From assembly GCA_016789865.1 (NCBI GenBank), contig JAEUPC010000138.1, forward strand, positions 1-58,369: a DNA stretch of 58,369 bases, written 5' to 3'. Made by a program: the position numbers and the translations under genes. Every line of letters starts with the position of its first letter. Within the stretch, counting starts at the first letter, position 1. Positions 2,241-35,610 of this stretch are shown one piece after another. The notes under the pieces were generated by a model. It ran no database searches. It saw nothing but the letters and a program-made list of their open reading frames with translations, and was not told the origin of the DNA. The DNA comes from Rubrivivax sp. (lineage in GTDB: Bacteria; Pseudomonadota; Gammaproteobacteria; Burkholderiales; Burkholderiaceae_C).

Positions 2241-3140
2241 ATGGACACCTCCGTCACCTCCACGCGGCGCGCGGACGGCACTGCCGCCGCCCTTGCGGTT
2301 GCCGCGCCGCGCCCCGTCGAGCGCCTCGTGCAAGGCCAGCCCACCAGCGACGGCGCGGGCGTCAAGCTCACGCGCGTGCTGACGCAGAACCTGCAGCGGC
2401 GCCTGGACCCCTTCCTGATGCTCGACGCCTTCGGCAGCGACGCCGCGGCCGACTACATCGGCGGCTTCCCCGACCACCCGCACCGCGGCTTCGAGACGGT
2501 CACCTACATGCTCGAAGGCCGCATGCGCCACAAGGACAGTGCCGGCAACGAAGGCCTGCTCACGCCCGGTGCCGTGCAGTGGATGACCGCCGGCCGCGGC
2601 GTCATCCACAGCGAGATGCCCGAGCAGGAAGAGGGCCGCATGGAAGGTTTCCAGCTGTGGCTCAACCTGCCTGCCAAGCACAAGATGCGCCAGCCCTGGT
2701 ACCGCGACATCCGGCCCGAAGACATTCCCGAGTGGCGAGGCGGCGGTGTGACGGCGCGCGTCATTGCCGGGCACGCGCAGGGCGTGGCCGGCGCGATGCA
2801 GCGCGAAGACACCGAGCCGCTGTACCTGGACCTGCACCTGGAGCCGGGCGCGACCTTCGCGCAGCCGCTGCCGGCGGCGCACAACGCTTTCGTCTACGTC
2901 TACCGCGGCGAGCTGCTGATCGGCCAGACGGCCGTGCGCTCGCAGCGCATGGCCATCCTGGCCAATGCCGACGGCAGCGACGGCGTGGCGCTGGTGGCGG
3001 GGGAGCAGGGCGCGCGCGCCATCGTCATCGCGGGCCGGCCGCTGAACGAGCCGATTGCGCAGTACGGCCCGTTCGTGATGAACACCAACCAGGAGATCTT
3101 CCAGGCGGTGGAAGACTTCCGCGCCGGCCGGCTGGCGTAA
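2241..3140 (+). CDS. Pirin family protein
   Basis: The 299-residue product is a bicupin of the pirin family. The N-terminal half has the diagnostic run FGSDAAADYIGGFPDHPHRGFET, in which the histidines of PHRGFE are the metal ligands, and then MTAGRGVIHSEMPEQ with the further His and Glu ligands. The second cupin ends with FVMNTNQEIFQAVEDF, the usual pirin C-terminus. Pirins bind iron; some act as quercetin dioxygenases and others as transcriptional cofactors, and the role here is unknown. The ATG at 2241 gives a normal length. It is divergent from DUF427. Confidence 0.93.
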   Translation: MDTSVTSTRRADGTAAALAVAAPRPVERLVQGQPTSDGAGVKLTRVLTQNLQRRLDPFLMLDAFGSDAAADYIGGFPDHPHRGFETVTYMLEGRMRHKDSAGNEGLLTPGAVQWMTAGRGVIHSEMPEQEEGRMEGFQLWLNLPAKHKMRQPWYRDIRPEDIPEWRGGGVTARVIAGHAQGVAGAMQREDTEPLYLDLHLEPGATFAQPLPAAHNAFVYVYRGELLIGQTAVRSQRMAILANADGSDGVALVAGEQGARAIVIAGRPLNEPIAQYGPFVMNTNQEIFQAVEDFRAGRLA

Positions 3141-5201: not shown

Positions 5202-6020
5202 ATGTGCGGGCGCTACGTCGTGGCCTACGACCCCGAGACGCTGGTCTCGGGCTTTTCGGTGCTGCGGGTGCCGCTGTTCCCCAGGCGCTGGAACGTCGCG
5301 CCGCAGTCCGACGTGCCGGTGGTCTACGAGACCCGCCAGGGCGAGCGCATTGCCGAGCTGATGCGCTGGGGCCTGGTGCCCTCGTGGGCCGCCGACCCCA
5401 AGCTGGGTGCGCGGCTGAACAACGCGCGGGCCGAGGGCGGGTTCGACAAGCCCTCGTTCCGCCAGGCCATCCGCCGGCGCCGCTGCCTGCTGCCGGCCAG
5501 CGGCTTCTACGAGTGGCAGGCCACCCGCATCGGCGGCAAACCGGCCAAGCAGCCCTGGTACATCAGCGCGGTGGGCGGCCAGCCGCTGGCGATGGCGGGC
5601 CTGTTCGAAGCCTGGCGCAGCGGCCCCGAGGCGCCGTGGCTGCTCACCTGCTGCGTCATCACCTGCGAAGCCAACCCGCTGATGGCGCCGATCCACGAGC
5701 GCATGCCAGTGCTGCTGGCACCGGGCGACTGGGCCACCTGGCTCGCGCGCGAGGTGCACGACGAAGCGCGCATCGCGCCGCTGCTGGCGGTGCCGCCGGC
5801 CGGCGGGCTGCAGGCCTGGCCGGTGTCGCGCGAGGTGAGCCGCGGCGCCAGCGAGGGGCCGCAGCTGGTGCAGCCGCTGGAGCCGCCGCTGGAGCAGCCG
5901 CCGGAGCAGCCACTCGTTCCCGGGGGCACCAGGCCGGCGCCCGGTGCCGCGGACCTAACGCCCGAACGGCTTGACGCCGAACCAGGCGCCGTGGGCCCAG
6001 AAGGCGATGGCGGCCCATAG
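5202..6020 (+). CDS. SOS response-associated peptidase, SRAP/YedK family
   Basis: The 272-residue product begins MCGRYV, so Cys2 becomes the N-terminal residue after Met removal. This is the catalytic residue that crosslinks abasic sites in single-stranded DNA in the YedK/HMCES family. The conserved asparagines (LNNARAEG, about residue 73), the glutamate in ASGFYEWQ (about 104) and the histidine in IHERMPV are all present. The C-terminal 40 residues are a Pro/Glu-rich tail with PPLEQPPEQP repeats that is not part of the core fold. The gene runs 66 bases into the end of the convergent NnrU gene. Confidence 0.95.
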   Translation: MCGRYVVAYDPETLVSGFSVLRVPLFPRRWNVAPQSDVPVVYETRQGERIAELMRWGLVPSWAADPKLGARLNNARAEGGFDKPSFRQAIRRRRCLLPASGFYEWQATRIGGKPAKQPWYISAVGGQPLAMAGLFEAWRSGPEAPWLLTCCVITCEANPLMAPIHERMPVLLAPGDWATWLAREVHDEARIAPLLAVPPAGGLQAWPVSREVSRGASEGPQLVQPLEPPLEQPPEQPLVPGGTRPAPGAADLTPERLDAEPGAVGPEGDGGP

Positions 6021-6536
6021 GCCGACCCCCACCACGACGGTGACGAGCGTGGGCACCAGGCGCCCGGGCGCGGCGGTGACGCCGGCCGCCCGGTCGCGCG
6101 CCTTGGCGGCGCGGTAGTCGAGCACGGCCCAGACCAGGAACGAGCCGAACAGCACCAACTCGGCGAGCATCTGGTTGCTGACCAGGTGGGCAAACGCCCA
6201 CACCTTGACGCCGAGGATCATCGGGTGGCCCAGCCGCGCCTTGATGTGGTTGCCGGGCACGTAGGCCGCGACGATCATCACCAGCGAGACGAGCACCAGC
6301 AGCGAGGCCAGGTGCCGCGTCCAGACCGGCGGCACCCACAGCAGCACCGGCTGCTGACGCGCCGCGCCGAAGCCGATGACGACGAGCGCCAGGCCGGCGA
6401 TCGAGACCAGCGAGTACAGGCCCTTCCAGCCGTTGGGCGTCAGGCGCATCACCATCGCCTGGCGCCAGCCCTCGGCGAAGATGCGCACCGAGTGGGCGCC
6501 GAGGAAGAGCACGAGGCCCAGCACGAGCAGCGTCAT
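5955..6536 (-). CDS. NnrU family membrane protein
   Basis: The 193-residue product is almost entirely hydrophobic, with about six membrane segments. It opens MTLLVLGLVLFLGAHSVRIF, which matches the NnrU family start, and has the conserved GHPMILGVKVWAFAHL stretch with paired histidines in the middle. NnrU was first linked to denitrification (nitric oxide handling) and is related to isoprenoid or methyltransferase-like NnrU/MAPEG-type membrane proteins; the exact role is not known. No denitrification genes are visible nearby. The 3' ends of this gene and the SRAP gene overlap antisense by 66 bases. Confidence 0.88.
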   Translation of the reverse strand: MTLLVLGLVLFLGAHSVRIFAEGWRQAMVMRLTPNGWKGLYSLVSIAGLALVVIGFGAARQQPVLLWVPPVWTRHLASLLVLVSLVMIVAAYVPGNHIKARLGHPMILGVKVWAFAHLVSNQMLAELVLFGSFLVWAVLDYRAAKARDRAAGVTAAPGRLVPTLVTVVVGVGLWAAIAFWAHGAWFGVKPFGR

Positions 6537-6777
6537 CGAAGGTTCTCCTGCTGCGCGCTCGCGGGTCCGGCAAGGCATGCCGTCCCGGCGCGCGGGCGCG
6601 ATGGTAGCGACGACGCGGGTGCCGGCGCCTGTCGGACACAATGCCCGCGGCTGCTGGCGGCCGCGCTCGCGCCTGGTCGCGTGGGCGGCCAAGCCGCCGG
6701 CGCGAGCCGCGGGACCGCTGGCCCACCCGCCTGGACTCAACCCGATACCCCGCGCCCAGCCTGCCCGGCCCAACGCC

Positions 6778-7704
6778 ATGCAAGTCTTCGACGCCCTCAC
6801 GGTCCGCGCGCGCACGCCGATGCCGGCGCTGGTGCAGGCGTTGCGGCGCGCGTTCCTCGCCGGCGCCGAGGTGCCGCAGCGGCATCCGCACAGCCTGCCC
6901 GGCGGCGGCAGCATGCTGTTGATGCCGGCCTGGCGCGAGGGCGGCCGCCTGGGGGTCAAGACCGTCACCGTCTGCCCGGGCAACGGCGCGCGCGGCCTGC
7001 CGGGCGTGCACGGCCTGTACAGCCTGTTCGACGCCGCCACCGGCGTGCCGTTGGCGGTGATGGACGGCAGCGAGCTCACCGCGCGGCGCACCGCGGCGGC
7101 CAGCGCCCTGGCGGCGGCGCACCTGGCGCGCGGCGACGCTGCGCGGCTGCTGCTGGTGGGGGCCGGCCGCGTGGCCGCACTGCTGCCCGAGGCCATGCGC
7201 GCGGTGCGGCCCACGCTGGGCGAGGTGGCGGTGTGGGCCCGCCGCGCCGAGGCCGCCCAGGCGCTGGCGGCGCAGTGCCGGGCCGCCGGCTTCGACGCCC
7301 TCGCCGTCACCGACCTGCCGGCGGCCGCGGCGCGCGCCCACATCGTCAGCTGCGCCACGATGTCCACCACGCCGCTGGTGCAGGGGGCGTGGCTGCAGCC
7401 CGGCGCGCACCTGGACCTCATCGGCAGCTACGCCCCGCACATGCGCGAGGCCGACGGCGCGGCCTTCGCGCAGGCCGGCGTGTGGGTCGACACGGCCGAG
7501 GCGCTGGCCAAGGCCGGCGACGTGCTGATGGCCATCGACGAGGGGTGTTTCGAGGCCGCGCGCGCCATGGGGACGCTGGCCGATCTCGTCCACGGCCGGT
7601 GCCGCGCGCGCGAGCGCGACGACGAGCGCACACTGTTCAAGTCGGTGGGCAACGCCATCGAAGACCTGGCCGCCGCCGAGCTGGTGCTCGACGGGCCGGG
7701 ATAA
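6778..7704 (+). CDS. Ornithine cyclodeaminase / mu-crystallin family protein
   Basis: The 308-residue product matches the family across its length: the substrate-side GVKTVTVCPGN and GVHGLYSLFDAATGVPLAVMDGSELTARRTAAASALAA, then a Rossmann motif LLLVGAGRVAALL (NAD binding, residues about 123-135), then VSCATMSTTPLV and DLIGSYAPHMREAD. The family includes ornithine cyclodeaminase, alanine dehydrogenase and 1-pyrroline-2-carboxylate or thiomorpholine-carboxylate reductases. The sequence does not decide which reaction is used. It is divergent from NnrU and lies alone. Confidence 0.9.
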   Translation: MQVFDALTVRARTPMPALVQALRRAFLAGAEVPQRHPHSLPGGGSMLLMPAWREGGRLGVKTVTVCPGNGARGLPGVHGLYSLFDAATGVPLAVMDGSELTARRTAAASALAAAHLARGDAARLLLVGAGRVAALLPEAMRAVRPTLGEVAVWARRAEAAQALAAQCRAAGFDALAVTDLPAAAARAHIVSCATMSTTPLVQGAWLQPGAHLDLIGSYAPHMREADGAAFAQAGVWVDTAEALAKAGDVLMAIDEGCFEAARAMGTLADLVHGRCRARERDDERTLFKSVGNAIEDLAAAELVLDGPG

Positions 7705-7812
7705 TCCGCCGCCTCGGTCACTTCCTGCCGTTCGCCTTGCGCCGGGGTCGGTGGCGCCGCCGGGCTTGCCGGCCCACGCCCCGACCCTCGCACCCGGCGG
7801 ACCCCGCACACC

Positions 7813-8310
7813 ATGTTCAAACGCCTTGTCCTGCCGCTTGTCGTGATCGTCGGCCTCGCCGCGCTTTACTTCTGGGCGGCCTGGAAGTGGAGCTACTCCA
7901 GCGGCGAGCGCGCCGGCTGGGTGCAAAAGCTGTCGAAGAAGGGCTGGGTCTGCAAGACCTGGGAGGGCGAGCTCGCACTCGTCTCGCTGCCCGGCTCCAC
8001 CGCCGAGAAGTTCTACTTCACCATCCACGACGACCACGTGGCGCAGCAGATCACCCGCCACATGGGCAAGCGCGTGGCGCTGCACTACGAGGAGAAGGTC
8101 GGCCTGCCCACGAGCTGCTTCGGCGAGACGCGGCACTTCATCACCGGAGTCACCCTGAGCGAGGAGATTCCGCTCGGCCCCGGGGTCGTGGTGCAGACGC
8201 CGCAGGCGGCGACCGCGGCCGCCAGCGCAGCCGCCAGCGCGGCCGCGGCGGGCCCGCCGGCGGCCCCTGTGGCCCCCGTGGCCCCTGCCGCTCCCGCGGC
8301 TTCGCGCTGA
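7813..8310 (+). CDS. Hypothetical membrane-anchored protein
   Basis: The product has 165 residues. An N-terminal hydrophobic helix (about residues 5-25) anchors it, and the following 100 residues form a compact domain with WVQKLSKKGWVCKTWEGELALV and FYFTIHDDHVAQQITRHMGKRV. Two cysteines (VCKTW and TSCFGE) could form a disulfide. The last 35 residues are Ala/Pro/Val low complexity. Similar small proteins occur in Burkholderiales without known function. No functional link to its neighbours is visible. Confidence 0.75.
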   Translation: MFKRLVLPLVVIVGLAALYFWAAWKWSYSSGERAGWVQKLSKKGWVCKTWEGELALVSLPGSTAEKFYFTIHDDHVAQQITRHMGKRVALHYEEKVGLPTSCFGETRHFITGVTLSEEIPLGPGVVVQTPQAATAAASAAASAAAAGPPAAPVAPVAPAAPAASR

Positions 8311-8496
8311 GCGGCGCACGCCGGGGTTGACGCACGCCGCGGCCGCGTCGGCGCGGTGGCGCCGCGGGCCGGCGTGCCCCGCAAAGTGGCTGCACCAGGG
8401 CTGCAGCACGGCGCGCCGCGGTCGCGCACAATCGTCACCCCTCGTCAGCAGGACGCCACCGCGCCACAAGTGCGGGCTGCGCCAAGGACCTCGACC

Positions 8497-10092
8497 ATGA
8501 GCACCTCGTGTCTTCCCGCTGCGGCGCGCGTCGCCGCCTTCGGTTTGTCGGCCGTGCTGCTCGGCGCACCCGCCGCGCAGGCCGCCGGGGCACCTTCGGC
8601 GAATGTCGCCTGGCAGGCCGCCGCCGCCGACGCGGACATCGAGCGCGCCTTCACCCGCGCCAAGGCCGAGAAGAAGCCGGTGCTGCTGTACTGGGGCGCC
8701 ACCTGGTGCCCGCCGTGCAACCAGCTGAAGGCCACGTTGTTCAACCGCCAGGAGTTCGCGGCGCTGTCGAAGAACTTCGTCGCCGTGCATGTCGACGGCG
8801 ACCGGCCGGGCGCGCAGAAGCTGGGCACGCGCTTCAAGGTGAGCGGCTACCCGACCACGGTGCTGTTCACCCCCGAGGGCCAGGAGATCACGCGGCTGCC
8901 CGGCGAAGTGGACGCGCCGCAGGCGCTGGCCACGCTGCAGCTGGGCCTGTCGGGCGGGCGCGCCGCCAAGGCGGTGCTGGCCGACGCGCTGGCCGGCAAG
9001 GCCCTGACCGCCAACGAGTGGCGGCTCCTGGCCTTCTACAGCTGGGAAACCGACGAGCAGCAGCTGGTGCCCAAGGCCGAACTGCCCGGCACTTTGGTGA
9101 AGCTGGCCGCGGCCAGCCCTGGCGGCCTGAATGGCGAAGGCGAAACCACCACGCGGCTGTGGCTCAAGGCGCTGGCCGCCAGCGACGACGGCAAGGGCCT
9201 GAAGGCCGACGACGCACTGCGCCAGCGCGTGAACAAGGTGCTGGCCGATGCGCGCGAGGTGCGCACGCAGATGGACGTGCTGACCGGCGGCGCCGCCGAC
9301 ATCGTGCGCACGCTGGAAGACGACGAGTCGCCGCGCCGTGTGCCGCTGGTGGCGGCCTACGACGCCGCGCTGAAGCGCCTGGAGGCGGATGCGACGCTGT
9401 CGCGCGGTGACCGCATGGGCGCGCTGATCGCGCGCATCGACCTGGCGCGGCTGAAGGTGCCCAAGGAAGACGCGCACCCCAAGCTCGCCGAGCCGCTGCT
9501 GGCCGACGCGCGCGAGCATGTGGCGCGCGCCGACCGCGAGATCACCGACGGCTACGAGCGCCAGGCGGTCATCACCGCGGCGGCCTATGCGCTGGGCCGC
9601 GCGGGGCTGTGGGCCGACAGCGAGGCGCTGCTCAAGAGCAACCTCGCCAAGAGCCACTCGGCCTACTACCTGATGAGCCAGCTGGGCAGCAACGCGCGCA
9701 AGCAGGGCAAGAAGGACGAGGCGCTGCGCTGGTACGGCGAGGCATTCGAAAAGAGCCGGGGCCCGGCCACCCGGCTGCAATGGGGTTCGGGCTACCTCAC
9801 CGCGCTCATCGACCTGGCGCCGCAGGACCCCGCGCGCATCGAGAAGGTGGCCGCGCAGCTGCTGCGCGAAGCCGCCGGGGATGCCGGCGCCTTCGAGGGC
9901 CGCAGCGTGCGCAGCCTGCAGCGCGCCGGCAACAAGCTGGTGGGCTGGAACGGCGAGGGCAAGCATGCCGCGGTGATGAAGCGGCTGCAGACGCAACTGG
10001 ACGGCTTGTGCGCGAAGACCGGGCCAGATGACCGCGTGGCCTGCGAGAAGTTGCTCAAGCCGGCCACGGCGACCGCGGCGAAGCCGGCATGA
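8497..10092 (+). CDS. Periplasmic thioredoxin-fold protein with helical C-terminal region
   Basis: The product is 531 residues: a signal peptide (about 1-30, ending AAQAAG), a thioredoxin-fold domain with a WCPPC active site at residues 70-74 and cis-Pro segment SGYPTTVLF, then about 370 mostly helical residues resembling tetratricopeptide-type repeats. A CxxC of this type suggests thiol oxidation or reduction in the periplasm. The ATG at 8497 follows AAGGA. The stop is overlapped by an ATG (ATGA at 10089-10092) that opens the repeat-encoded small frame leading into the yej genes, so it appears to head that operon. Confidence 0.85.
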   Translation: MSTSCLPAAARVAAFGLSAVLLGAPAAQAAGAPSANVAWQAAAADADIERAFTRAKAEKKPVLLYWGATWCPPCNQLKATLFNRQEFAALSKNFVAVHVDGDRPGAQKLGTRFKVSGYPTTVLFTPEGQEITRLPGEVDAPQALATLQLGLSGGRAAKAVLADALAGKALTANEWRLLAFYSWETDEQQLVPKAELPGTLVKLAAASPGGLNGEGETTTRLWLKALAASDDGKGLKADDALRQRVNKVLADAREVRTQMDVLTGGAADIVRTLEDDESPRRVPLVAAYDAALKRLEADATLSRGDRMGALIARIDLARLKVPKEDAHPKLAEPLLADAREHVARADREITDGYERQAVITAAAYALGRAGLWADSEALLKSNLAKSHSAYYLMSQLGSNARKQGKKDEALRWYGEAFEKSRGPATRLQWGSGYLTALIDLAPQDPARIEKVAAQLLREAAGDAGAFEGRSVRSLQRAGNKLVGWNGEGKHAAVMKRLQTQLDGLCAKTGPDDRVACEKLLKPATATAAKPA

Positions 10093-10213
10093 GCGCGCCG
10101 GGCCGCTCCCAAGCGCTCATCCCGAAGCGCTTCAGGCGCGAAGGCACTCCAATGAGCGCGCCGGGCCGCTCCCAAGCGCTCATTCCGAAGCGCGCAGCGC
10201 GCAGGGCAGTCCA
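10089..10213 (+). repeat. Tandem start-codon repeat, two units (63 + 62 bp)
   Basis: The units begin at 10089 and 10152, each with ATGAGCGCGCCGGGCCGC. Within a unit, ATGAGCGC can pair with GCGCTCAT to form a stem that contains the start codon. The second half of unit 1 carries a version of the GAAGCGCTTC palindrome and an AAGG purine stretch shortly before the next ATG. Related units lie at 13272-13395. Compared with those, these carry one extra C after the first 18 bases, which changes the reading frame inside the unit. Confidence 0.85.
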
Positions 10214-10217
10214 GTGA
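10089..10217 (+). CDS. Repeat-encoded 42-residue leader peptide bridging trx and yejA
   Basis: The frame starts with an ATG that shares ATGA with the stop of the thioredoxin gene and ends in a TGA that shares GTGA (10214-10217) with the GTG start of the binding-protein gene. It is made of two repeat units read in phase: each begins MSAPGRSQALIPKR and the first ends REGTP. The peptide is very basic and resembles no known protein. It may act only as a translational relay between neighbours. Whether the peptide itself matters is unknown. Confidence 0.45.
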   Translation: MSAPGRSQALIPKRFRREGTPMSAPGRSQALIPKRAARRAVQ

Positions 10218-12223
10218 GCCGGGTCAACCGGCGCCGCCGGCAGCTGGCCGCGGCGCTGCTGGGCGCGCCCTGGGCCGCGGCGCTGCCTTCGGCGCTGGCG
10301 CAGGGCAAGGGTGCCGCGGTTCGCGCGGCTGCATCGGCAGACCCTGCGCCGAGGACCGCCGCCACCGCGGCAGCCGCAACAGAACCCGAAGACGGTGCCG
10401 CCTTCACCGGCCGCTGGGTACACGCCTTCGCGGCCTACGGCGCGCCGAAGTACGGCCCCGACTTCAGGCACTTCGACTACGTCAACCCCGAAGCGCCCAA
10501 GGGCGGCACGCTGAAGCTGAAGAACCCCGACCGGCGTTCGAGCTTCGACAAGTTCAACCCCTGGACGACGCGCGGCAACGCGCCGGCGGGCGTTCTCATC
10601 TGGATGGTCGAGGGCCTGGCGCATCTCGGGCAGGACGAGCCGCAGGCGATGTACGGGTTGCTCGCCGAGGCGATCAATGTCGCGCCGGACTTCGCCAGCG
10701 TGAGCTTCCGCCTGCGCCCCGAGGCGCGCTTCTCCAACGGCGACCCGGTGCGGGCCGAAGACGTGCGCCACAGCTTCGAGATGCTGGCCGGCAAACATGC
10801 GCGCCCGGCTGTGCAGACCCAGTTGGCCGGCATCGCGCGCGTCGTGGTGCTGGACGAGCGCACGCTGCGTTTCGAGTTCCGCGACAAGACGCGCGAGCAG
10901 GTGTTCGTGGCCGGCACCATGCCGGTGTTCAGCCGCAAGTGGGGTGCGCAGCCCGACGGCAAGGCCAAGAAGCTGGACGAGCTGGTCACCGAATACCCCA
11001 TCCTCTCGGGCCCGTACCTCATCGACAAGGTCGAGATGCCGCGGCGCATCGAATACCGGCTCAATCCCGACTACTGGGGCCGTGCGCTGGCCGTGCGCCG
11101 CGGGCACTTCAACTTCGAGCGGGTGGTCTACCGCATGTACGCCGACGACGCCGTGGCGCGCGAGGCGTTCAAGGCCGGCGAGTTCGACCTGATGAAGGAG
11201 TACCGCTCGCGCGCCTTCGTGCGCCAGCACGCCGGCGTGAAGTGGGACGACGGGCGCATCGTCAAGGCCGTCCTGCCCACGCGCTACGGTCAGTACCTGC
11301 AGAGCTACCAGTTCAACCTGCGCCGGCCGCTCTTTCAGGACATCCGCGTGCGCGAGGCGCTCGTGTACACCTACGACTTCGAGACGCTGAACAAGACGCG
11401 CATGTTCAAGCGCCACAGCAGCATGTTCAGCAACTCGGAGTTCGCGGCGCAGGGGCTGCCCACACCCGGGGAGCTGGCGCTGCTGGAGCCGTTCCGCGCC
11501 GAACTGCCGCCGCGCGTGTTCGGCCCCGCGTTCGTCAGCCCGCGCACCGATGCCGACCCCAACGGCCTGCGCCGCAACCTGCTGAAGGCCCGCGAGCTGC
11601 TCGACGCCGCCGGCTGGAAGCTCGACAGCTCGGGCACGCTGCGCAACCCGCAGGGCGAGCCGTTCGTCTTCGAATACATGCAGCCGCTGGCCAGCAACGT
11701 CAACGACTGGCAGGGCAACCTGCGCAAGCTGGGCATCGAGATGAAGGTGCGGCTGGTGGACTTCGCGCTCTACCGCCGCCGGCTGCAGCAGTACGACTTC
11801 GACATGGCTGCGCTCGTCGACGGCCGCTTTACCCTGCCGCAAGGCTCCGAAGTGGCGCAGATGATCGGCAGCAAGGCCGCCGACGAGCCCGGCAACAACA
11901 ACTATCGCGGCGTGAAGAACCGCGTCGTCGATGCGCTGATCGAGGCGATGAACCATGCCAACTCGCTGGAGGAGCTGCGCCACGCCGCGCGGGCGCTCGA
12001 CCGGGTGGTGATGTGGCACTTCTGGTGCATCCCCGATCTGTATTCGGGGCAGGAGCCGATCTCCTGCTGGAACAAGTTCGGCATCCCGAAGACGAGCGCC
12101 CACTACTTCCAGGCCGATACGCTGATCAACGGCTTCATCGAGCACGCGCCCTGGCCGCTGTGGACCTGGTGGGACAAGGGCCGCGAAGGCGCGTCACCGG
12201 TGGCGAAGGCCGGTCGAGGCTGA
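10214..12223 (+). CDS. yejA: ABC transporter extracellular solute-binding protein, family 5 (YejA-like)
   Basis: From the GTG at 10214 the product is 669 residues. The GTG is chosen because a clear signal peptide follows (RRRRQLAAALLGAPWAAALP) and because it overlaps the preceding stop. Family 5 features include FRLRPEARFSNGDPVRAEDV and the long C-terminal lobe ending near HAPWPLWTWWD. With a YejB-, YejE- and YejF-like set downstream it is the binding protein of a peptide importer. E. coli YejABEF takes up microcin C and other peptides; the ligand here is not known. Confidence 0.9.
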   Translation: MSRVNRRRRQLAAALLGAPWAAALPSALAQGKGAAVRAAASADPAPRTAATAAAATEPEDGAAFTGRWVHAFAAYGAPKYGPDFRHFDYVNPEAPKGGTLKLKNPDRRSSFDKFNPWTTRGNAPAGVLIWMVEGLAHLGQDEPQAMYGLLAEAINVAPDFASVSFRLRPEARFSNGDPVRAEDVRHSFEMLAGKHARPAVQTQLAGIARVVVLDERTLRFEFRDKTREQVFVAGTMPVFSRKWGAQPDGKAKKLDELVTEYPILSGPYLIDKVEMPRRIEYRLNPDYWGRALAVRRGHFNFERVVYRMYADDAVAREAFKAGEFDLMKEYRSRAFVRQHAGVKWDDGRIVKAVLPTRYGQYLQSYQFNLRRPLFQDIRVREALVYTYDFETLNKTRMFKRHSSMFSNSEFAAQGLPTPGELALLEPFRAELPPRVFGPAFVSPRTDADPNGLRRNLLKARELLDAAGWKLDSSGTLRNPQGEPFVFEYMQPLASNVNDWQGNLRKLGIEMKVRLVDFALYRRRLQQYDFDMAALVDGRFTLPQGSEVAQMIGSKAADEPGNNNYRGVKNRVVDALIEAMNHANSLEELRHAARALDRVVMWHFWCIPDLYSGQEPISCWNKFGIPKTSAHYFQADTLINGFIEHAPWPLWTWWDKGREGASPVAKAGRG

Positions 12224-12240
12224 GACACCAGGGCAACCCC

Positions 12241-13275
12241 ATGTGGCTGTACATCCTCAAGCGCATCGCGCTGATGGTCCCCACGCTGCTGGGCGCGCTG
12301 ACCATCACCTTCGTCGTCATGCAGTTCGTGCCCGGCGGCCCGATCGAGCAGATCATGGCCGAGCAGAGCGCCGGTGCCGGCGGCGAGACCAGCGGCTACA
12401 AGGCCGGCCGCGACCTGGACAAGAAGCAGCGCGAGGAGCTGATGAAGCTGTACGGCTTCGACAAGCCGGCGCATGTGCGCTACTTCGAGATGCTGGCCAG
12501 CTTCGCGCGCTTCGACCTCGGCAAGAGCTTTCTGCAGAACAAGGACGTGTGGGCGCTGATCAAGGAGAAGCTGCCGGTGTCGATATCGCTGGGGCTGTGG
12601 ACCTTCTTCATCAGCTACCTGATCAGCGTTCCGCTGGGCGTGGCCAAGGCGGTGCGCGAGGGCTCGCGCTTCGACACGTTCACCACCTTTGGCGTGCTGC
12701 TGGGCTATGCGATTCCGGGCTTCGTTCTCGGCGTGCTGCTGATCGTGCTGTTTGCCGGCGGCAGCTTCCTGGAGTGGTTCCCGCTGCGCGGGCTGACCTC
12801 GGACCATTGGGCCGAACTTACGGCCTGGGGCAAGGTCAAGGACTACTTCTGGCACCTGACACTGCCGCTTGTGTGCCTGGTGATCCACAGCTTTGCGGTG
12901 GTGACGCTGCTGACCAAGAACACCTTCGTCGAGGAGGTGCGCAAGCAGTACGTGCTGGTGGCGCGTGCCAAGGGCCTGAGCCAGGAGCGCGTGCTCTACA
13001 AGCACATCTTCCGCAATGCACTCATTCCGCTGGTCACCGGTTTTCCCGCGGCGTTCATCGGCGCGTTCTTTGCCGGTTCGGTGCTGATCGAGACGCTGTT
13101 TTCGCTCGATGGCCTGGGGCTCTTGTCGTTCGAGAGCATCGTGCGGCGTGACTACCCGGTGGTGCTGGGCTCGCTGTACCTGTTCACGCTGATCGCGCTG
13201 GTGGTCAAGCTGGCCTCCGACGTGCTCTACACGGTGGTCGACCCGCGCGTGCAGTTCGGGGCGGTGGGGCGATGA
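12241..13275 (+). CDS. yejB: Peptide ABC transporter permease, YejB-like
   Basis: The 344-residue membrane protein starts MWLYILKRIALMVPTLLGA and continues ITFVVMQFVPGGPIEQ, a close match to the YejB N-terminus (the DppB/OppB permease family with the usual PGGP). The EAA-type cytoplasmic loop that docks on the ATPase is seen as YVLVARAKGLSQERVLYKHIFRNALIP. A long extracytoplasmic insert lies between membrane segments 1 and 2. It starts 17 bases after yejA, and its stop shares ATGA with the first repeat-encoded peptide. Confidence 0.93.
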   Translation: MWLYILKRIALMVPTLLGALTITFVVMQFVPGGPIEQIMAEQSAGAGGETSGYKAGRDLDKKQREELMKLYGFDKPAHVRYFEMLASFARFDLGKSFLQNKDVWALIKEKLPVSISLGLWTFFISYLISVPLGVAKAVREGSRFDTFTTFGVLLGYAIPGFVLGVLLIVLFAGGSFLEWFPLRGLTSDHWAELTAWGKVKDYFWHLTLPLVCLVIHSFAVVTLLTKNTFVEEVRKQYVLVARAKGLSQERVLYKHIFRNALIPLVTGFPAAFIGAFFAGSVLIETLFSLDGLGLLSFESIVRRDYPVVLGSLYLFTLIALVVKLASDVLYTVVDPRVQFGAVGR

Positions 13276-13337
13276 GCGCGCCGCCCGGCCCCAAGCGCTC
13301 ACGCCGAAGCGCTTCAAGCGCGAAGGTACCCCAATGA
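13272..13337 (+). CDS. Repeat-encoded 21-residue leader peptide 1 (yejB-yejE junction)
   Basis: The ATG overlaps the yejB stop (ATGA 13272-13275), and the frame ends in CAATGA whose TGA is part of the ATGA that starts the second peptide. It encodes a basic, Ser/Arg/Pro-rich peptide beginning MSAPPGPKRSRRS and ending AKVPQ. Nothing similar is recognised among known proteins. The intact overlaps at both ends make translational relay a plausible role. Confidence 0.45.
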   Translation: MSAPPGPKRSRRSASSAKVPQ

Positions 13338-13395
13338 GCGCGCCGGGCCGCCCCAAGCGCTCATGCCGAAGCGCTTCGAGCGCGAAGGTACCCCA
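13272..13395 (+). repeat. Tandem start-codon repeat, two units (62 + 62 bp)
   Basis: Units begin at 13272 and 13334, and the next ATGAGCGCG at 13396 is the yejE start itself. Each unit holds an ATGAGCGC/GCGCTCAT-type inverted pair (imperfect in unit 1), the palindrome GAAGCGCTTC or a close version, and GCGAAGGTACCCCA directly before the following ATG. The repeat therefore supplies both a purine-rich ribosome-binding stretch and a start codon. Confidence 0.88.
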
Positions 13396-13399
13396 ATGA
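13334..13399 (+). CDS. Repeat-encoded 21-residue leader peptide 2 (yejB-yejE junction)
   Basis: This second short frame begins in the ATGA that ends peptide 1 and stops in the ATGA (13396-13399) that starts yejE. It differs from peptide 1 at a few positions (MSAPGRPKRSCRS at the start) and ends in the same AKVPQ. The three ATGA junctions in a row would let a ribosome pass from yejB to yejE through two short peptides. In another frame the same DNA would give yejE an 11-residue N-terminal extension from an ATG at 13363. Confidence 0.45.
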   Translation: MSAPGRPKRSCRSASSAKVPQ

Positions 13400-14484
13400 G
13401 CGCGGTGCTCGACCCGCCCGCGGCGCCCGAAGGCGCCGACGCTCTGGCGGCGCAGGTCGCCGTGGCGCCGATGTCGCCGAACCAACGCGCCTGGGCGCGC
13501 TTCAAGCGCAACCGCCTGGGCTACCTGTCGCTGTGGATCATGGCCGTGCTGCTGGTGCTGACCACCTGCGCCGAACTGATCAGCAACGAGCGGCCGATCG
13601 TCGCGCGCATCGGCGGCCAGTGGCTCGCGCCGCTGGTGAACAACCCCAGCGAGAAGGCGCTCGGCGGCGACTTCGACACGCCCACCGATTGGAAGGACCC
13701 GTTCATCACCGGGCTCCTGGGCAAGCCCGGCAACTGGGCGTTGAGCACGGTCAACCCGCACTCCGCGCACTCGATCGACTACTTCCGCCCGGGCCTCGAC
13801 CCGGCGCCACCGAGTGGGCAGAACTGGCTGGGCACCGACGCCAAGGGCCGCGACATGCTGGCGCAGCTGATCTACGGCTTTCGCGTCAGCATCTGGTTCG
13901 CACTCGCGCTCACGGTGGTGGGCACGGTGATCGGCATCGCGATGGGCGCACTGCAGGGCTTCTTCGGCGGCAAGGTCGACCTCGTGCTGCAGCGCCTCAT
14001 CGAGATCTGGGGCTCGGTGCCCGAGCTCTACCTGCTGATCATCTTCGCGTCGATCTTCGAGCCCTCGTTGCTGCTGCTGTTGGTGCTGCTGGCGCTGTGG
14101 GGCTGGATGGGTCTGTCGGACTACGTGCGCGCCGAGTTCCTGCGCAACCGCAGCCTCGAGTTCGTGAAGGCGGCGCGGGCGCTGGGGCTTTCCAACGGCC
14201 AGATCATCTGGCGGCATGTGCTGCCCAACTCGATGACGCCGGTGATCACCTTCCTGCCGTTTCGCATGAGCGGCGCGATCCTGGCGCTGACCTCGCTCGA
14301 TTTCCTCGGGCTGGGCGTGCCGGCGTCGGTGCCGTCGCTGGGCGAGCTGCTCAAGCAGGGCAAGGAGCACCTGGACAGCTGGTGGGTCATCGTGCCGACC
14401 TTTGCCGTGCTGGTGGTGACGATGCTGCTGCTCACCTTCATCGGCGACGCGCTGCGCGACGCCTTCGATACGAGAAAGTCGTGA
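13396..14484 (+). CDS. yejE: Peptide ABC transporter permease, YejE-like
   Basis: The 362-residue product begins at ATG 13396, which overlaps the stop of the preceding leader peptide. After a 30-residue cytoplasmic tail comes [22 protein letters not shown], matching the YejE/DppC start, and then [19 protein letters not shown] in the first periplasmic loop as in E. coli YejE. The ATPase-docking loop is [25 protein letters not shown] start at the upstream in-frame ATG 13363 is possible but would lie inside the repeat. The stop overlaps the yejF GTG (GTGA). Confidence 0.92.
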
Positions 14485-35501: not shown

Positions 35502-35510
35502 GCTTCGAAC

Positions 35511-35561
35511 AGCGCCGATTTGCTCCGGCTTGCGGGCGCTCAACAAATACCGCTAAACAGG
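35511..35561 (+). ncRNA. SAM-II-type riboswitch upstream of metX
   Basis: The segment has the H-type pseudoknot of the SAM-II class. P1 is AGCGCC (35511-35516) with GGCGCT (35535-35540). The pseudoknot stem is ATTTG (35518-35522) with CAAAT (35544-35548). The conserved pieces GATTT, CTTGC and GCTAAA (35552-35557) lie in the expected order and spacing. Position before a homoserine acyltransferase gene, the first step of methionine synthesis, is the classical location. SAM binding should lower metX expression. Confidence 0.85.
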
Positions 35562-35569
35562 ACGCCCGA

Positions 35570-35610
35570 CCCGGTCGCCGTCTCGTAAAGCGGCGCCGGG
35601 TTTTTTTTTT
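35570..35610 (+). terminator. Intrinsic terminator in the metX leader
   Basis: CCCGGTCGCCG (35570-35580) pairs with CGGCGCCGGG (35591-35600) with a single bulged T, and ten T residues follow at 35601-35610. It lies between the riboswitch and the metX start. CGGCGC at 35591-35596 can instead pair with GCGCCG at 35512-35517, which overlaps the 5' side of P1, so P1 formation and antitermination exclude each other. SAM-bound RNA would therefore favour termination. Confidence 0.88.

Follow-up and report, generated by a model that had tools for sequence, protein, structure and literature searches.

A 62-nt repeat at stop/start overlaps of operon genes in Rubrivivax and its relatives probably spreads as a mobile element that keeps the reading path

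The window analyzed here is a 58,369-nt stretch of DNA that constitutes one contig of a draft Rubrivivax genome (4.59 Mb, 77% complete), and contains a yej-like operon with two clusters of a tandem repeat of 62 or 63 nt. The first cluster is located between a thioredoxin-like and a yejA-like gene, and the second between yejB- and yejE-like genes (Table 1). An earlier note on this DNA had described tandem units at both junctions with ATGA or GTGA overlaps at their ends, and all four units and their overlaps are found as it described them. The stop codon of the thioredoxin-like gene is the TGA at 10090–10092 within an ATGA, the yejB stop (13273–13275) lies within the first of three ATGA overlaps that begin at 13272, 13334 and 13396, and the GTGA of yejA begins at 10214. 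The gene names given in the note hold as family matches: the first gene has thioredoxin-like domains, the yejA-like gene matches SBP_bac_5, and the two permeases match BPD_transp_1. Among NCBIfam models, the permeases score best with microcin C permease YejB and with microcin C permease (PRK15021), in each case below the model cut-off. The frame across the first cluster ends at the GTGA of yejA, as had been noted, but the one-base indel noted there is not a lucky event: a 63-nt unit, which keeps the frame, followed by a 62-nt unit, which leads to the overlap, is a common pair in the family. A 20-base core of the unit, with up to three mismatches, has four matches in the window versus a mean of 0.02 in shuffled sequences. 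No gathering-level Rfam match was found at the units, and the single weak match at E ≤ 10 over positions 10000–13500 (13421–13486, minus strand) falls outside them. The data presented below make it probable that the units belong to a small repeat confined largely to a single bacterial family, a mobile element that carries no gene and settles at stop/start overlaps while keeping the reading path.

Table 1. Repeat units, relay frames and flanking genes in the window.
Feature	Positions	Strand	Remark
Repeat unit 1, cluster 1	10089..10151	+	63 nt, in-frame type
Repeat unit 2, cluster 1	10152..10213	+	62 nt, overlap type
Repeat unit 1, cluster 2	13272..13333	+	62 nt
Repeat unit 2, cluster 2	13334..13395	+	62 nt
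Putative 42-codon relay frame across cluster 1	10089..10217	+	stop overlaps yejA start, GTGA 10214-10217
Putative 21-codon relay frame	13272..13337	+	stop overlaps ATG of next unit
Putative 21-codon relay frame	13334..13399	+	stop overlaps yejE start, ATGA 13396-13399
AGGG, Shine-Dalgarno-like, unit-borne, ahead of yejA start	10203..10206	+	sequence and family statistics
GAAGG, Shine-Dalgarno-like, unit-borne, ahead of yejE start	13384..13388	+	sequence and family statistics
Hairpin 2 of 62-nt unit, GCGC-GCA-GCGC	10190..10200	+	two middle pairs covary in family
Thioredoxin-like domain protein gene, upstream of cluster 1	8500..10092	+	frame open from 8356; start position provisional
yejA-like solute-binding protein gene (SBP_bac_5)	10214..12223	+	family match
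yejB-like permease gene	12241..13275	+	family match
yejE-like permease gene	13396..14484	+	family match

A profile search (E ≤ 1e-3) of loci fetched from the draft genome yielded 46 units, including the four of the window, which form 26 clusters with one to three units each. At E ≤ 1 the covariance model gives 63 matches in the same genome, of which 53 reach E ≤ 0.001, and six weak matches (E 0.018 to 0.61) were left out of the context checks. The yej genes served to train the codon-score model by which reading frames were called. The gene upstream is on the strand of the unit in 24 of the 26 clusters, and its TGA stop coincides with unit bases 2–4 in 19 of these 24. The downstream frame is on the same strand in 23 clusters, and starts at the unit end in 20 of them, a number that includes locus L040, which really lies within one open frame. 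Both ends fit in 16/22 clusters; locus L031 has no downstream call and L035 too little upstream sequence. In seven of ten weaker loci of this genome a TGA still begins at unit base 2 and the array still ends at a start (L316, L317, L318, L320, L324, L325 and, with a weak upstream call, L319), L322 fits partially, and L321 and L323, which do not fit, may be chance matches.

The same placing is observed in relatives, whose set comprises 142 clusters once duplicates are dropped by an 80-nt key. Of 132 clusters assessable upstream, 120 have the gene on the strand of the unit, two have it on the other strand and ten gave no call; the stop of the upstream gene is the unit TGA in 105/120 and lies elsewhere in 15/120. 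Downstream, 116 of 126 assessable clusters have a frame on the same strand (opposite in 6, no call in 4), with a start at the unit end in 104/116, 103 of these being [A/G/T]TGA; both ends fit in 81/98. The units are thus placed exactly at [A/G/T]TGA, nearly always in one orientation. A count of units at gene starts in the genome and its relatives had been set beforehand as a refutation test, and it places most copies at starts with their frames open. The proposal in the earlier note of a repeat at operon junctions that carries a Shine-Dalgarno-like stretch, a start, a stop and a continuous path agrees with these counts and with the spacings that follow.

The path through the units is open. A spacing of 2 mod 3 means that the stop of a unit overlaps the next start, and one of 0 mod 3 that it is read through in frame; 147 of all 200 spacings are 2 mod 3, 51 are 0 mod 3 and two are 1 mod 3. 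From the first base of the last unit to the downstream start, 18/20 spacings in the draft genome are 2 mod 3 and two are 0 mod 3 (one of them L040), and the corresponding numbers for 2, 0 and 1 mod 3 in relatives are 95, 8 and 1 of 104. Between tandem units they are 4, 15 and 1 of 20 in the draft genome, and 30, 26 and 0 of 56 in relatives. The frame of the last unit ends exactly in the overlap in 110/124 cases and enters the gene in frame in nine. The 62-nt length is itself inherited, and among the 56 units of other lengths 49 are 0 mod 3, five are 2 mod 3 and two are 1 mod 3. The 1 mod 3 spacing of L031 (64 nt) resembles a two-base insertion after GTGA, and a relay may run there despite it.

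Two further observations concern unit length. Relatives such as L066 (from genome G197) carry arrays with 60-nt units, which are 0 mod 3 and account for 10/56 tandem spacings; lineages with such units seem to use in-frame read-through. Shortened units at L324:1478–1521 (−) and L325 (−) of the draft genome have model-match lengths of 44 and 57 nt, and are still 2 or 0 mod 3.

Column 37, a spacer base and the most variable of those checked, reads G in 90, C in 72, A in 46 and T in one of 209 anchored units, and a T at this position creates a TAG stop in the relay frame; by a looser pattern over all loci, chance matches included, T is found in 7/209. Because column 37 is nearly never T and the spacings are nearly all 2 or 0 mod 3, the frame is judged to be kept open. 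The earlier note had considered functional peptides of 21 or 42 residues, and the alternative that the unit encodes a small basic peptide of this kind, repeated through the genome, would account for a frame that is open in nearly all units and for the recurring type MSAPGRSQALIPxRAARRVVQ. Against it, 141 of the 62-nt units show no third-position excess, their mean entropy being 0.40, 0.53 and 0.49 at the first, second and third codon position, in a test that rests mainly on columns 37–62 since columns 7–36 are fixed by the search pattern for the loci fetched with it. Codon 13 exchanges freely among K, E and Q, the start codon is lost in 5/20 inner units of the draft genome, and two typed consensus peptides have no family match. 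The unit as a peptide gene is rejected on the codon-position entropy and is hardly credible as an explanation; the sequences indicate that selection is keeping the frame open and not the peptide. Start codons of inner units are lost at 8/41 in-frame versus 2/34 out-of-frame junctions, a direction expected of a relay, and one that is no more than suggestive of inner units losing their start solely where the preceding unit is in frame.

Empty counterparts of filled sites were found in sister species. In the nearest relative examined, G256 (93–95% identity in YejE), both window junctions and L034:2799 are plain ATGA overlaps without a unit. A joined-flank query revealed four further empty sites in G256 (L033, L040, L031, L050) and one in G276 (L036), which brings the clean empty sites to eight, seven at gene overlaps with ATGA and one (L040) with GTGA inside a gene; alignments with L301–L306 and L295, L299, L307 and L308 are not clean and were excluded from this count. 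The net insert at the empty/filled pairs is a whole number of units. With regard to a target-site duplication, TGA flanks the insert on both sides and is single in the empty sites, the unit itself also carrying a TGA. At four of the seven filled overlaps (the first window junction, L033, L031 and L050) the downstream start reads G, whereas six of the seven retain A as the opening base of their first unit, a pattern that suggests that the element brings the base preceding the downstream TGA. The term selfish used in the earlier note fits the empty sites as well as the copy number within the genus, where 33/39 genomes have matches and copies range from 0 to 53.

L040:2923–3048 (+) consists of two 63-nt units within one open frame and adds 42 residues in frame, and the sister fragment L291 encodes the same protein without the 42 residues and with a GTGA at the site. 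The unit can therefore enter [A/G]TGA also without a stop/start overlap. Other junctions differ in age and array size. Decayed units occupy three further junctions of L034 in either species. The array of L039 counts one unit in G256 versus three in the draft genome and that of L035 two versus three, and L044 and L051 have one in both. From this mix of filled, empty and decayed sites it follows that insertions are both old and recent and that arrays change. Mixed arrays consist of a 63-nt type followed by a 62-nt type, and argue for repeated insertion besides tandem duplication. The nearest neighbours of 40 units of the draft genome are found in the same cluster for 10, elsewhere in the genome for 11, in other species for 9, and are tied for 10.

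The unit contains two hairpins of different standing. In hairpin 1, unit bases 1–8 (ATGAGCGC) can pair with bases 25–32 (GCGCTCAT). Broken pairs are about as many in 141 units as independence predicts, so that compensatory change is not in evidence, and the counts do not show hairpin 1 to be a maintained structure despite its high pairing potential. Hairpin 2 is formed by bases 39–42 and 46–49 of the 62-nt units. Columns 40/48 show 17 two-sided changes, one one-sided change and seven broken pairs versus 24.2 expected, and columns 41/47 show 22 two-sided changes, no one-sided change and two broken pairs versus 25.8 expected, counts that common descent of the units possibly inflates. Hairpin 2 is seen as maintained, and its covariation is compatible with a hairpin in DNA no less than with one in RNA. 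The paired changes occur nearly without G-U intermediates, as though copying or correction of the palindrome had taken place at the DNA level. RNAalifold on mixed 62- and 63-nt units gave a weak six-pair structure, and covariance model R1, derived from that structure, amounts to a sequence model. Terminal inverted repeats of the kind found in MITEs are lacking, as the ends read (A)TGAGCGCG and TCCA(G) and the inverted pair lies at bases 1–8 and 25–32.

The 3' end of the unit is a Shine-Dalgarno stretch, GGAGG, GAAGG or GCAGG, followed by 7–8 bases and [A/G]TG. The median duplex energy at 124 unit-derived starts is −7.75, versus −2.5 at 3000 random RTGA, and values of −4.5 or lower are reached at 88/124 of these starts versus 23% of random RTGA; 59 repeat-free overlaps have a median of −5.0. 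This strong ribosome-binding stretch over the whole set would be in keeping with a host-selected regulatory module at operon junctions, which sets the downstream/upstream protein ratio or, with hairpin 1 hiding the start codon, makes downstream translation dependent on upstream translation. So would the pairing of ATGAGCGC with GCGCTCAT in 90.3% of cells among 45 aligned units of the draft genome, and the functions of the flanking genes. In ten of the 26 clusters scanned besides those of the window, seven flanking pairs look functionally linked: two permeases (L033), a histidine kinase and a LytTR regulator (L044), ABC ATPases (L047, L049), Mur ligases (L032), a Rieske oxygenase and a dehydrogenase (L046), and a methyltransferase and a glycosyltransferase (L042). 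The pairs at L036 and L050 are not evidently linked, and the upstream protein at L039 has no match. The ribosome-binding stretch and the linked gene pairs also count in favor of the mobile element. As to the regulatory module, sister species keep the gene pairs without units at the same junctions, the copy number within one genus has the range given above, and hairpin 1 has no fewer broken pairs than under independence. An improvement of the downstream ribosome-binding stretch by insertion was also rejected, the filled site being stronger than the empty one at only two and weaker at five of the seven overlaps (L040, inside a gene, is not counted). A regulatory module is, on this balance, an improbable account of the repeat.

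Several observations weigh against insertion of a mobile element at gene overlaps. In the draft genome, the upstream stop precedes the unit at L038, L041, L043 and L051, L045 has no upstream coding call, no start is found at the unit end at L037, L038 and L048, and the downstream frame is opposite at L043 and L045. L040 lies within a gene and not between genes, and L034:11696 carries an internal TAG. The ribosome-binding stretches at eight filled sites of the draft genome range from −3.1 to −6.5 and are mostly weaker than the repeat-free median. A gain of units, as opposed to their precise loss, is suggested by parsimony with few outgroups, and no mobiliser of the repeat was found. Finally, 59 of 129 repeat-free same-strand gene ends are already [AGT]TGA overlaps by the same caller. 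Overlaps are common in this genome, and the argument therefore rests on the exact placing and on the empty sites.

The frequency of such overlaps is also in favor of the alternative that units insert at many places without target specificity and are mostly lost by selection except at gene overlaps, as frames and coupling would be under selection either way. In that case, however, copies would not be expected to start exactly at TGA and on the strand of the upstream gene as regularly as they do in the relatives, and the few clusters in which the upstream stop lies elsewhere are at odds with it, since a copy in an ordinary gap should be harmless. GTGA was likewise the entry point of the sole insertion into a gene for which an empty site is known. 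Aiming at [A/G]TGA and merely surviving there are not fully separable; L040 speaks for aiming, and we regard survival without targeting as unlikely, if the least so among the alternatives.

The anatomy of the units points to ribosome passage through them. In the mechanism that we propose for the mobile repeat, a ribosome would end the upstream gene at the unit TGA, restart on the overlapping ATG and translate the 21-codon frame. With a 62-nt unit this relay would end in the next [A/G]TGA, and with 63- and 66-nt units the ribosome would read on in frame. It would finally restart on the downstream gene beside the Shine-Dalgarno stretch of the unit. The insert would be nearly silent because of this relay, and an element whose insertion does little harm could thus settle where most other inserts break coupling. 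Each insertion would leave a TGA target at its end, so that mixed arrays could become longer either through new insertions or through duplication in tandem.

How the repeat moves was considered with respect to REP-type elements and their Y1 transposase (RAYT). The repeat is small, palindromic and present in many copies, and the Watson-Crick covariation of hairpin 2 with almost no G-U steps is what a DNA-level hairpin would show. On the other hand, the Y1 transposase family PF01797 has no match in the draft genome (77% complete), nor in G259, G254, G255, G252, G268 and G261 with 27–45 copies each. G256, with 33 copies, does have a match, yet seven of the eight most copy-rich genomes (27–53) have none, and the mean is 9 copies in 20 genomes with a match versus 16 in 19 genomes without. 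The bases beside the palindrome vary (GTAG, GTCG, GTTG, GTGG, GCAG and others), with no constant GTAG/CGTC tag. The Y1 transposase is probably not the mover, and a REP moved by RAYT, which lacks a PF01797 link across genomes, is disfavored to the point of being very improbable.

Matches of the covariance model are found in 86/250 genomes of the family and in 59/141 genera. A class-wide draw with stricter filters (E ≤ 1e-5) gave matches in 2/274 genomes, the draft genome itself and one other of the same family. Among the 80 of 114 stretches listed, the named hosts are Rubrivivax, Leptothrix, Thiomonas, Ideonella, Piscinibacter sakaiensis, Methylibium and Ottowia, and further hosts are metagenome-assembled genomes (MAGs) of Burkholderiales and Proteobacteria and one Rhodanobacter MAG; copies were also found in Rubrivivax albus by a pattern scan. 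A blastn search (E ≤ 1e-3) with one 66-nt stretch gave no match in plasmid or phage records, and viral contigs contain no exact match to the pattern. A different, larger GC-rich stretch of palindromic appearance is located in the intergenic region between distant permease genes at L224:1127–1330 (G265).

The architecture of the repeat resembles that of the mycobacterial interspersed repetitive units (MIRU), which reportedly go back to Supply et al. 1997 and are said to lie at operon junctions with DTGA as target. Both are short dispersed repeats, single or in tandem, at many loci, both insert at the stop/start overlap between neighbouring genes, with exceptions here such as L040, and in both the ends of the unit reading frame overlap the flanking frames, as they do here for the last units that stop at the overlap. 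The repeat described here differs in its 62/63-nt unit with a covarying GC-rich hairpin, in its two frame solutions (62 nt to the overlap, 63 or 66 nt in frame), and in its hosts, which belong to another phylum in the listed stretches, mycobacteria lying outside the search. One review describes MIRUs as apparently mobile, with insertion at start codons, a reading frame coupled at −4 nt and a likely minimal impact on the gene (PMC12548453), the same reading as that proposed above for a nearly silent insert. The repeat was filed as MIRU-like and not as MIRU, the likeness being one of architecture.

Rickettsia palindromic elements also keep an open frame at their site and, as a rule, lie inside genes. 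L040 is comparable, since its units extend a coding sequence by 42 residues without a change of frame, whereas the repeats described here lie mostly between genes and end in start/stop overlaps. REP and BIME elements with TnpA-REP are small palindromic dispersed repeats, often in arrays beside genes (PMC3733652); the present repeat differs from them in having no constant tag, nearly one orientation and no Y1 transposase link. The enterobacterial RU elements are likewise small and mobile, and may be translated when fused to a gene, but they measure 103–168 bp, many are intergenic or gene-fused, and the available part of the source does not describe stop/start overlaps as their site (PMC2759123). 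A literature search without most subscription journals found no published description of the Burkholderiales repeat family, its hairpin or the two frame solutions. The architecture is thus already known from MIRU, and the sequence family, the hairpin and the two frame solutions appear to be new.

An overlap between two operon genes would seem to leave no room for an insert, yet the repeat family appears to be built for entering such overlaps in dozens of copies. A MIRU-like way of life in a distant phylum calls for a common principle and for a mobiliser. We tentatively suggest, with somewhat less than even confidence, that the repeat is a second, unrelated lineage of mobile DNA camouflaged by translational coupling, in which an undescribed agent would read the GC hairpin as DNA, [A/G/T]TGA, mostly at gene overlaps, would be the target and would be regenerated by every insertion, with growth of arrays as the result, and the element would survive because each copy acts as a complete termination-reinitiation relay. 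If this is true, translational coupling would be, together with the MIRU case, a general niche for mobile DNA that has been reached more than once. The empty/filled pairs between sister species constitute a natural experiment on termination-reinitiation with 0, 1, 2 or 3 relays, in frame or in overlap. In genome annotation, short frames and start sites at repeat junctions are easily misread.

Two other features were observed in the window. A 1445-codon open frame at 5659–9996 (−) is antisense to real genes, and is a shadow frame caused by the high G+C content. At 35502–35577 (+), a match to the SAM_alpha riboswitch (RF00521) scores 38.2 bits, slightly above the gathering score of 36, in this Burkholderiales genome; the family is named for alphaproteobacteria.

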